Shown: positions 50,291 through 63,538 of the stretch, one piece after another
Layout: each line of letters begins with the position of its first letter
How positions within the stretch are numbered: position 1 is the stretch's first letter
NCBI GenBank assembly: GCA_031213475.1
Contig: JARUPZ010000027.1
Span: 1,363,001-1,427,000 of the forward strand
Origin: Nereocystis luetkeana
Lineage: Eukaryota; Sar; Phaeophyceae; Laminariales; Laminariaceae
Direction of reading: 5' to 3'
DNA: 64,000 nucleotides
The notes under the pieces: model-generated
Database searches by the model: none
Told to the model about the DNA's origin: nothing
The model's input: only the letters and a program-made list of their open reading frames with translations
Made by a program: the position numbers and the translations under genes

Positions 50291-53200
50291 TTACCCCTTG
50301 CGCTTGCTGAGGCGCCACGAGTTGGGCGGGTTGAACCTGTCGTACAGCGGTTCGATCTTCTGCATCCTCTTCTGCCTGGTCATCTTGTTCGGGTCCGCGG
50401 CCTTGTAGAACTGAGGGGCGAGCTCGACCAGCCACTTCGGCTCGATGGTCATGATGTTGCGCATGTACTCCTGGAAAACCATGGACAGAGAAATGGGGGG
50501 GCGGGGAGGGGGGTGGGGGGGGTGGTTGCGGTGGTCGGGGAGGGAGGAGGGTTATAGGAGGTTTAATATGGAAGGGTTTGTAAGGGGATTGACAGGGAGA
50601 GGTTGGTAGGGGGGGGAGGGGGTTGGTAGGAGGGGGGAGGGAGGGGGGCAGGGGCGATTTCGCAGGGGGAGATCCTGAGAAAATCGTGACCTTGACCAAT
50701 CACGATCACCAAAATCCAACCAAAATCGTGACATAAATTGTACTCTTCTACAGTTGACTGGAAAAAAACGCTTTGAAATGTACACCGCGCCGCGCACTGC
50801 AGCTGCTGCAATAAGCAGCATACGAGTCGTACGTATGGTGCCGCCGTGCGCTCACAGTAAGCTCGATGTGAGGCAAAACCGGACAACCTCAAGACCGGGG
50901 ACACAGACCACGATAGAGGAAGAAGTAGCTGCGATGGCAAACTTTGCCGGGCGGTGGGAGCGATAGAATAAAAGAAACCACAACGTATCACAGCGGCAGA
51001 TCCATCTCGACAGCTTGGGTCAAGCGGGTATCGCACGACCAAGACTAACCCACCCACCCACCCACCCACCCACCCACCCACCCACCCACCCAACGACTTA
51101 ATCAAAACAGCTAACGAAACCGATCATAAACAAGAAGAAAAAAAAGAGAAGAAAAGAGGAGCAAAAAACATCAATACCAAGTACCAGGTATACTGTAAGA
51201 TCCAAATATCAATCTGAACATGAAGAAAAAAAATCGAGGTCAAACAGTTTTGTTTTCATGTTGGTTTTGTGTGCTAGTTGACCAAAAACAAAACGAAAGA
51301 AACACGAAATACGAAAAATACAACTAATTTGAGCCGAAATCGCCACGTTCGTATCCTACCAGGTTACCACTATGCATCAATCCGACGAGTGCAATATACA
51401 GTATGGGCCCGCTAACCAGAAACACCTAATCTGGGCAAGCCTGAGATTCTTATTGGGGTGCCATCTTCAAACAACCTTGAGCAAAGGCTATTATATAGGA
51501 TTTAGTGTAGATTTCACCACTGAGCCGTTTTTCTTAACCCAATTTCCTTAGCGTTCTCCTAGAAGTGAGCGTTATGTTCTTACCGGGCACTTTCCTACTG
51601 GCGGGGCTATACTGTACGCACCAGAGGAGAACAAAGAAGAACGCTATGTCCGGTGCAGTACATAAACAAGTTGTTACCTCGTATGTATCGTTACCGTACC
51701 TTGGAGGTCAGCACGAGCTCGTGGTACAGTACCCAGTCAGGCGACGTATTGGAAAGGGCCGAGCTGGGATGTGTGTAGTCAGACCGGGTTATTTCTCCAC
51801 CATCGTGCGGTACTGTAACGGTATATTGGCACCACCCAACCAACCAACAAATGTGAAAAAAAAAACCGAAACTGACCCAAAGCAAACAATCAAAAATATA
51901 TACACAAAAACTAAAACATCCAAACATCCGAAGAACAAAGTTTTTTCTGTACATTTTGGCAAAAACCGAAAAAACCGGACCCGAAACAATTACATACCAG
52001 GTATATATATATACCAGAGTACGGTATGACTGACGCGTGCACCTACAGTATACCGGCATACACTACGAAGTGATTATGGTATCATAAACCTCACCTTGGT
52101 TGTCAACACGAGCTCGTGGTACAGCACCCACTCGGGCGACTTGTTGAACAGGGCCGAGCTGGGGTGTATGTACACGGGGTTTCCCTCGACCATGGTGCGG
52201 TACCCCTCCTGGGGGTCCTTCTTGGCAGCGTGCGTGAAATAACCGGACACGATGGCCCTGCGAACTTTGTTGTAGTTGCGCCCCGCCGTGAGAATGTCCA
52301 TCTAGCACGGTGCGGGTGGAGGAATAGAAGGCGGGGGTGGGGGGAGGTAGGGATAGACGCGGAGGGGGGGGGAAGGGGGGGTGCAAGGTGGAAACGAAAG
52401 GCGAGTAAGCAAAAGCGGGATACTGGAGAGCGGGGGGTGGGAGGATGTCCGCCGACTACAATCAAAAGCAAACTGGACTGCATTTGTCAGTACATTATTA
52501 AATTCACTTTGGGAAAAAGAGGCCCTTCGTAAGATATTTCCGGTATAACTTAGACCGCGCTCGAAGAATTTATGAATTCACCTTGTAGCGGTCCATGATG
52601 GAGACGAGCTGCTTCCTCACGTCCTGGGAGCGGCGCATGGACCTAGCCTGCACAAAGTTCTCGTAGCACCAGGGGTTGCTGAACTTGCTCGTCTTCCAGG
52701 CCTCGTACACGGCCAGGAGGGTTAGGTGGTCGCCCTGAACCATCAAAAACCGAACACAGGGGAAAAGGGGGCGTTTGTGTTTGTTTGCTTCCATCATCCC
52801 CTTTTCTCTTCAGGTGGACTACTTCTGGCGGAGGAGGTTTTACCCTCGACAGCCTCCTGGGCAAGTCGTGCCTACAGGTATCGTTCCTGAAGACTCAAGC
52901 CACGGTATGCATAATGTGGGGGGGGGGGGGGTAAGCTAAGAGAAAAACACACACAAGCTGCGAACAACAAATAAACAAGCGAACAAAAGAAGACTGTTAC
53001 TGCTGTTGCTGCTGTTGCCGCGGCGGCGGAGCATCGCTGAAGAAACGAGGGGAGTTAACATGCTCCGCTCGCATTATATGTCCGTGGTCTAGAAGCTTGC
53101 CGACGTGATTGATTAGGTGGCTTTGGTGTCCTCACCGGAGATCTGGTGTTCATGCTACTCTGGCATGAACGAAAATCACCGTTTGATGTTGACATCATTG

Positions 53201-63538: not shown

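Follow-up and report, generated by a model that had tools for sequence, protein, structure and literature searches.

Short local tandem duplications as the probable source of decayed exon-edge copies in introns of a Nereocystis luetkeana DHX8 gene

A review treats tandem duplication as one of the ways in which introns are gained (PMC3443670), and both that review and a study of a potato gene (PMC4974935) cite Gao and Lynch (2009) and Hellsten (2011) for intron sequence that stems from tandem duplication inside genes. In the potato RdRp gene a tandem genomic duplication across an intron-exon boundary became a new intron, and an intronic tandem duplication of 83 bp is mentioned in that study too (PMC4974935). 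Junction-crossing tandem duplication has already been published, and the copies of DHX8 exon edges described here belong to the same class of event, with a less striking result. Among the papers listed in a search of the open-access literature, none was on decayed copies of exon edges in introns as such.

The window analysed here is a stretch of 64,000 nucleotides, part of contig 27 (JARUPZ010000027.1) of the Nereocystis luetkeana assembly, which was searched as a genome of 465 Mb in 1987 contigs. Positions 50291-63538, on the reverse strand, hold the last 16 exons (E1 to E16) of a DHX8/Prp22 helicase gene, assigned by its open frame and a structure match: the joined exons form a single open frame of 722 amino acids plus stop, and the best solved match of the product is DHX8 (chain 5xjc_Y, 1195 bits). 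The match begins at residue 498 of the solved DHX8, so the earlier exons should lie outside the window; a tblastn search of the upstream stretches with the 722-aa query returned no match. The gene sample comprised DHX8 and 16 other DEAH-helicase and kinesin genes, 17 in all. Exons of the other genes are homology-defined pieces (n=85; 69 DEAH, 16 kinesin), so unrecognised exons may be present within sequence counted as intronic in these genes. The search of exons against their own flanks covered the 16 DHX8 exons, the 69 other DEAH pieces and 12 kinesin pieces; gene K16 was left out of this search and enters the sliding-window, period, placement and age counts.

Six of the 16 DHX8 exons have decayed partial copies, nine in total, each of them same-strand and within the neighbouring intron: one each for E2, E3, E7 and E15, two for E13, and three for E10 (two of its 3' edge and one of its 5' edge). 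Their repeat periods range from 83 to 390 bp. When exon letters only were compared by BLAST with all 15 introns, seven matches had E < 1e-5 (E3, E7, two for E10, two for E13, and E15), and all seven fall in the adjacent intron on the same strand. The E2 copy (E 0.033) and the E10 5'-edge copy (E 0.012) are weak on exon letters only and reach 42.6 and 61.4 bits, respectively, when intron flank is added. The remaining 14 BLAST rows (E 0.012-0.43) are short or inverted and involve adjacent and non-adjacent introns alike, the best of them being an inverted E10 match with E 0.012. A preliminary description of this DNA had counted five exons and seven copies; the pattern stands, and the counts become six and nine by BLAST and flank, the E3 copy and the E10 acceptor copy being absent from the earlier list. 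Its estimate that copies lie within about 100-400 bases of the working exon agrees with the measured periods.

The individual copies, all on the reverse strand, differ in extent and preservation. The 3' edge and donor region of E2 (61428-61463) recur at 61255-61290 with a period of 173 and with the donor GT lost, and gapped homology extends to about 61143. The copy of the E3 3' edge and intron start (60652-60750; source 60751-60847, period 97) adjoins its source without a spacer and has likewise lost the donor GT; within it, 60847-60812 is copied at 60750-60715. The 3' edge of E7 (59041-59093) is copied at 58734-58786, 85% identical, with a period of 307 and the GT lost. At E10, 28 intron and 16 exon bases of the acceptor edge (56174-56217) are copied at 56257-56300 across a spacer of 39 bases, with 41/44 positions identical, a period of 83 and the AG lost. 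E10 copy 1, of the 3' edge and intron (55812-55948; source 55949-56078, period 130), has no spacer and keeps the GT, and its end overlaps by 24 bases the start of copy 2, which represents the 3' part of the exon (55770-55835; source 56050-56115, 79% identical, period 280). The ungapped match of E10 copy 2 ends 16 bases short of the junction, and its gapped alignment reaches 9 bases beyond. E13 copy 1 consists of the acceptor edge and intron flank (54178-54254; source about 54035-54109, period 145), and copy 2, of the acceptor edge (54324-54395, period about 290), is the third rung of the same ladder; both keep the AG. The E15 copy (51700-51813; source 52095-52203, 80% identical, period 390) takes in the last 109 bases of the exon and the donor, with GT kept. 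Finally, two identical 101-bp units at 58121-58324, also on the reverse strand, end at the A of the E8 acceptor AG. E8 starts at 58119, and since the unit takes in the A but not the G of the acceptor, this repeat is intronic. Described earlier as a fresh duplication of an acceptor, it is real and 100% identical, with the AG only partly included.

Other repeats are present in the same region. Minisatellite arrays lie in DHX8 introns 1, 6 and 3 (62633-63281, 59347-59581 and 60370-60497, respectively), the array in intron 6 occupying about 230 of that intron's 339 bases. A dispersed element of about 214 bp occurs at 55505-55718 and 50010-50218 in inverted places, 82% identical, and has at least 41 matches in the genome, where the best 40 of 4231 first-look candidates were scored. 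Positions 57482-57560 with 57710-57788 (intron 8) and about 62289-62370 (intron 1) are inverted and related, and look like small foldback elements. An inverted-repeat element of about 110 bp is found twice in the kinesin gene L052 and, by eye, once at about 63757-63862, upstream of the window's first exon. Long tandem arrays cover 36383-40146 (380-bp unit) and 29452-32092 (128-bp unit). In the wider genome, 126 beta-helix domain matches include dense clusters on contigs C8 (8.6-10.0 Mb) and C14 (5.7-6.3 Mb), perhaps expanded epimerase genes, which resemble the clustered epimerase genes reported for Saccharina (PMC4421812).

At a threshold of at least 28 bits on the plus strand, six of the 16 DHX8 exons match their own flanks; the six include E16, with a marginal 17-base match that is outside the nine copies. 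At the same threshold DHX8 gave no match in any control (minus strand, reversed flanks, six shuffles and four foreign flank sets); at a looser 24 bits, one DHX8 exon matches on the minus strand. Exons were masked in the foreign-flank control, since paralogous exons otherwise match. Among the other DEAH genes, eight of 69 pieces match their own flanks, the controls giving 2 (minus strand), 1 (reversed flanks), 0.5 (shuffles) and 1.5 (foreign flanks). One of the 12 kinesin pieces matches, with two copies, compared with 0.25 for foreign flanks. DHX8 is richer in matching exons (6/16 vs 9/81 elsewhere, Fisher p = 0.016), in a comparison for which it was chosen because of its copies.

The matches follow a strict side rule. 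Copies of a 5' edge lie upstream and copies of a 3' edge lie downstream of the exon in 22/22 same-strand matches of at least 28 bits; these involve 15 exons, belonging to DHX8, to other DEAH genes and to a single kinesin gene, and so are not independent. A whole exon piece is covered by none of the 22, and tandem exon duplication, as in mutually exclusive exons, was rejected for this reason. Co-duplicated intron flank is present in 14 of the 22 at shuffle p <= 0.01, with 12 beating all 200 shuffles, and flank homology is not significant in the other eight (E15, E10 copy 2, two K5 copies, C17a, one C8 copy, C13 and E16). Within DHX8, E3, E10 copy 1, both E13 copies and E7 passed this test, the E7 flank being poorly aligned (50/79). 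For E2 and the E10 acceptor copy flank homology is plain in the alignments, the shuffle test having covered the other copies. It failed for E15 (p 0.175), where the junction itself is copied, and for E10 copy 2 (p 0.96); with the former short of significant flank and the latter short of the junction in its ungapped match, the initial statement that every copy includes a splice junction plus intron flank was too strong.

The spacing between copies was examined in the 22 exon-touching pairs of the sliding-window search, a different set from the 22 flank matches, whose alignments are lenient, gapped and local and whose identities are inflated. The spacer amounts to 8% of the period or less in eight of these pairs and to 20-79% in the other 14. 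Ladders of two or more decaying copies occur at E13, E10 and kinesin K5. A kinesin exon-end ladder in L053 at about 3080-3350, with at least two decaying copies and three by eye, is an exon-rooted tandem array. A young pair in gene C2 has 88/90 identical positions in its intron part, and the 65 intervening bases seem unrelated by eye, so this pair is better accounted for by filler or templated insertion than by a clean tandem duplication. A clean tandem duplication leaves the spacers, present in more than half of the pairs, unexplained; these and the intervening C2 bases could be due to later insertions, to filler at the joint or to templated insertion.

The manner in which the copies have decayed was examined at the codon level. 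Counted over all nine copies, departures from the exon sequence number 15/147 at codon position 1, 18/145 at position 2 and 34/145 at position 3. This is the pattern predicted for a copy that drifts freely beside an exon changing mostly at silent sites, and as far as the letters go it suggests drift free of coding constraint; simple arithmetic puts the rate at about 0.11 changes per site for the copy, with a similar amount added at exon third positions. The splice dinucleotide is kept in four of the eight copies that hold its position (E10 copy 1, both E13 copies and E15) and lost in the other four (E2, E3, E7 and the E10 acceptor copy). Both parts are aligned in 19 of 22 pairs; here the intronic part has roughly double the gap frequency of the exonic part (191/1841 vs 63/1157 sites), an excess that is expected because both intron copies drift. 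Identity is 0.771 in the intronic and 0.795 in the exonic parts and is higher in the exonic part in 14/19 pairs, in lenient alignments that favour similar stretches.

Divergence also bears on the ages of the copies. The seven older DHX8 copies are homogeneous, with a pooled divergence of 16.8% (p = 0.97), in a grouping made post hoc, after the identities had been seen. When all ten DHX8 repeats are taken together, young ones included, a single age is rejected (p = 0.002): the age difference is clear for the exact 101-bp repeat and marginal for the E10 acceptor copy and E13 copy 2 (p = 0.05 each), all three being younger. It is conceivable, if rather unlikely, that in this lineage introns were lengthened largely by waves of short local duplications, with a past burst followed by a quieter time. 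If this were true, exon-edge copies would be dated fossils, since the preserved source exon lets divergence give age.

In order to compare the placement of the repeats with chance, we used the sliding-window pairs with a period of 450 bp or less (78 of 92). Without K21, a gene with a dense cluster of intronic repeats that was omitted from some counts, exon-touching pairs number 20/61 in all genes against 14.7 expected at random (p = 0.08). The genes other than DHX8 contribute 11/45 against 9.6 expected without K21, and 11/62 against 12.3 with it; DHX8, picked because of its copies, has 9/16 against 5.1 (p = 0.04). Among 20 randomly placed exon-touching units, 13.6 would cross exactly one junction and about six would be whole-exon or exon-internal; the shortage of the latter kinds has a rough p of 4e-4 if each pair is counted as a one-junction unit. 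Since random units mostly cross one junction and there is no exon-touching excess outside DHX8, junction targeting is not needed. The impression that a junction is always included is largely geometry, to which the removal of harmful duplicates presumably adds.

By exon pieces, seven of the 16 local direct-repeat pairs in DHX8 and 63 of the 76 elsewhere are intronic (sliding-window search, 17 genes). Matching windows make up 15/69 of exon and 55/455 of intron windows in DHX8, and in the other genes 12/615 and 400/4209, respectively, at 33 bits, the reverse of DHX8. The non-DHX8 intronic direct repeats are densest at periods below 200 bp. For non-DHX8 intronic pairs at 100-600 bp, direct pairs outnumber inverted ones by 39 to 9; for intronic pairs with periods below 100 bp the two are equal (14 each). 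These intronic counts include some small mobile elements. One intronic pair in the kinesin gene K33 consists of a small inverted-repeat element present twice. Outside tandem arrays, local direct-repeat pairs, some of them small mobile elements, account for 13.8% of the non-exon DNA of the DHX8 region and for 7.2% in the 16 other genes.

We consider it probable that short local tandem duplications, placed anywhere in the gene, produced the copies. Short tandem duplications, with periods mostly of about 40-600 bp, would arise throughout the genes of this genome. A unit lying over one exon-intron junction would leave the working exon intact and add an additional exon edge with intron flank, and this edge, being without the opposite splice site, would be absorbed in the intron, lengthen it and decay unconstrained. 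A unit within an exon or over an entire exon would alter the protein and be purged. Because selection keeps the source exon unchanged, an exon copy would remain recognisable for longer than a duplicate made of intron only. This reading draws on the geometry and adjacency of the copies, the flank co-duplicated in most tested cases, the free-drift codon pattern, the occurrence in other genes and the near-random placement. The molecular route may have been slippage, unequal exchange or end-joining; harmful duplicates were presumably purged, and the copies are presumably unspliced. Confidence in clean tandem duplication is slightly reduced because the flank test stands at 14/22.

The spacers bring in break repair with templated insertion, in which a stretch beside a break is copied in, leaving a local copy and a spacer. 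As the main route we regard this as unlikely. It would account for the 14 pairs with long spacers, for the seemingly unrelated bases within the young C2 pair, and for the closely matching E10 acceptor copy beyond its spacer. Against it, eight pairs are nearly head to tail and the regular ladders of E13, E10 and K5 are typical of tandem arrays; moreover, templated insertion should sometimes invert, and inverted exon matches at 28 bits number 0 in DHX8 and 2/69 in other DEAH genes, compared with 1.0 for foreign flanks. It is improbable that a process aimed at junctions, for example one linked to transcription or splicing, copied junction fragments to nearby intron. The exon-touching excess in DHX8, the weaker one over all genes without K21, and the copies without detectable intron flank would suit such a process, but exon-touching pairs of the other genes are at chance level, 51 of the 62 non-DHX8 pairs are intronic when judged by the exon pieces, and the copied intron flank varies in length among the copies that have one.

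A role for the copies in the cell was also considered, as were other origins. Judged on sequence, it is very improbable that the copies have been retained as decoy or alternative exon edges that regulate splicing: half of the eight informative copies do keep the splice dinucleotide, but half have lost it, some 5.6 of 8 would be expected to survive drift at 16.8% divergence, so that retention is not evident, and codon positions 1 and 2 are often changed (33 in 292 sites). That introns contain exon-derived sequence also recalls the Rogers model, in which the repeats would record intron birth through tandem duplication of an AGGT-bearing exon segment. This has hardly any probability here: such a copy should end at the new acceptor without donor-side flank, and here 3'-edge copies are inside the intron, several of them with intron flank after the copied donor. 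Intron borders consisting of two AGGT copies were rejected because the 3'-edge copies sit within introns. A mobile element or introner was sought by DNA search of the 465-Mb genome with E15, E13 and the 101-bp unit, which returned their own locus only; E15 and E13 each matched itself and one local copy, and E10 returned only a paralogous exon. The sensitivity of this search is limited, as it missed the local E10 copies and one of the two E13 copies. A transposon origin is unsupported for E15, E13, E10 and the 101-bp unit, the exons and unit searched genome-wide.

Several proposals of the preliminary description can be judged against local tandem duplication as the preferred reading. Local tandem duplication itself is well supported, in view of the shared strand, the side rule in 22/22 matches, the nearly head-to-tail arrangement of 8/22 pairs and the flank in 14/22. 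The notion of a recurrent process gains from the 101-bp repeat, the multi-copy ladders and the other genes, and loses from the seven older copies, which fit one age. The focus on DHX8 introns was right in that the scars are there and too narrow in that other DEAH and kinesin pieces have them as well. Similarly, most copies do cross a junction, and exon-touching pairs are about as common as under random placement. The suggestion that this is one way in which the introns grew is plausible given the share of DHX8-region non-exon DNA in local direct-repeat pairs, and local duplication is one plausible route of intron length gain.

Local duplication seems to be a commonplace means of intron lengthening and not a special mechanism, and it reaches beyond DHX8; the phenomenon as a whole looks like ordinary mutation filtered by selection. 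Where transposons are not involved, the lengthening of introns is difficult to observe, as duplicates of intron sequence only should soon become unrecognisable. Exon-edge copies, which have a preserved reference adjoining them, could serve for counting and dating local duplications genome-wide. They also carry a warning for annotation, as a decayed edge beside a real exon is mistakable for an alternative exon.

The arrangement at this locus can be placed among several known ones. The minisatellite arrays in the DHX8 introns are likewise head to tail, and the E13, E10 and K5 ladders resemble short, decayed, exon-rooted arrays; unlike minisatellites, they have 2-4 copies and longer units, one of which is under coding selection. 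Duplication inside genes is likewise seen in the brown-algal ROCO genes, with their shuffling of LRR exons, but there whole exons are duplicated and used (PMC11378527), whereas the DHX8 copies are of exon edges only. Compared with the cases of Gao and Lynch (2009) and Hellsten (2011), as cited in PMC3443670 and PMC4974935, existing introns lengthen here and no new intron is seen. The potato RdRp duplication (PMC4974935) is alike in that the duplicated unit runs from the last part of an intron into the exon that follows; it differs in its fate, the duplicate there being spliced as a new intron, whereas those of DHX8 have decayed within existing introns.
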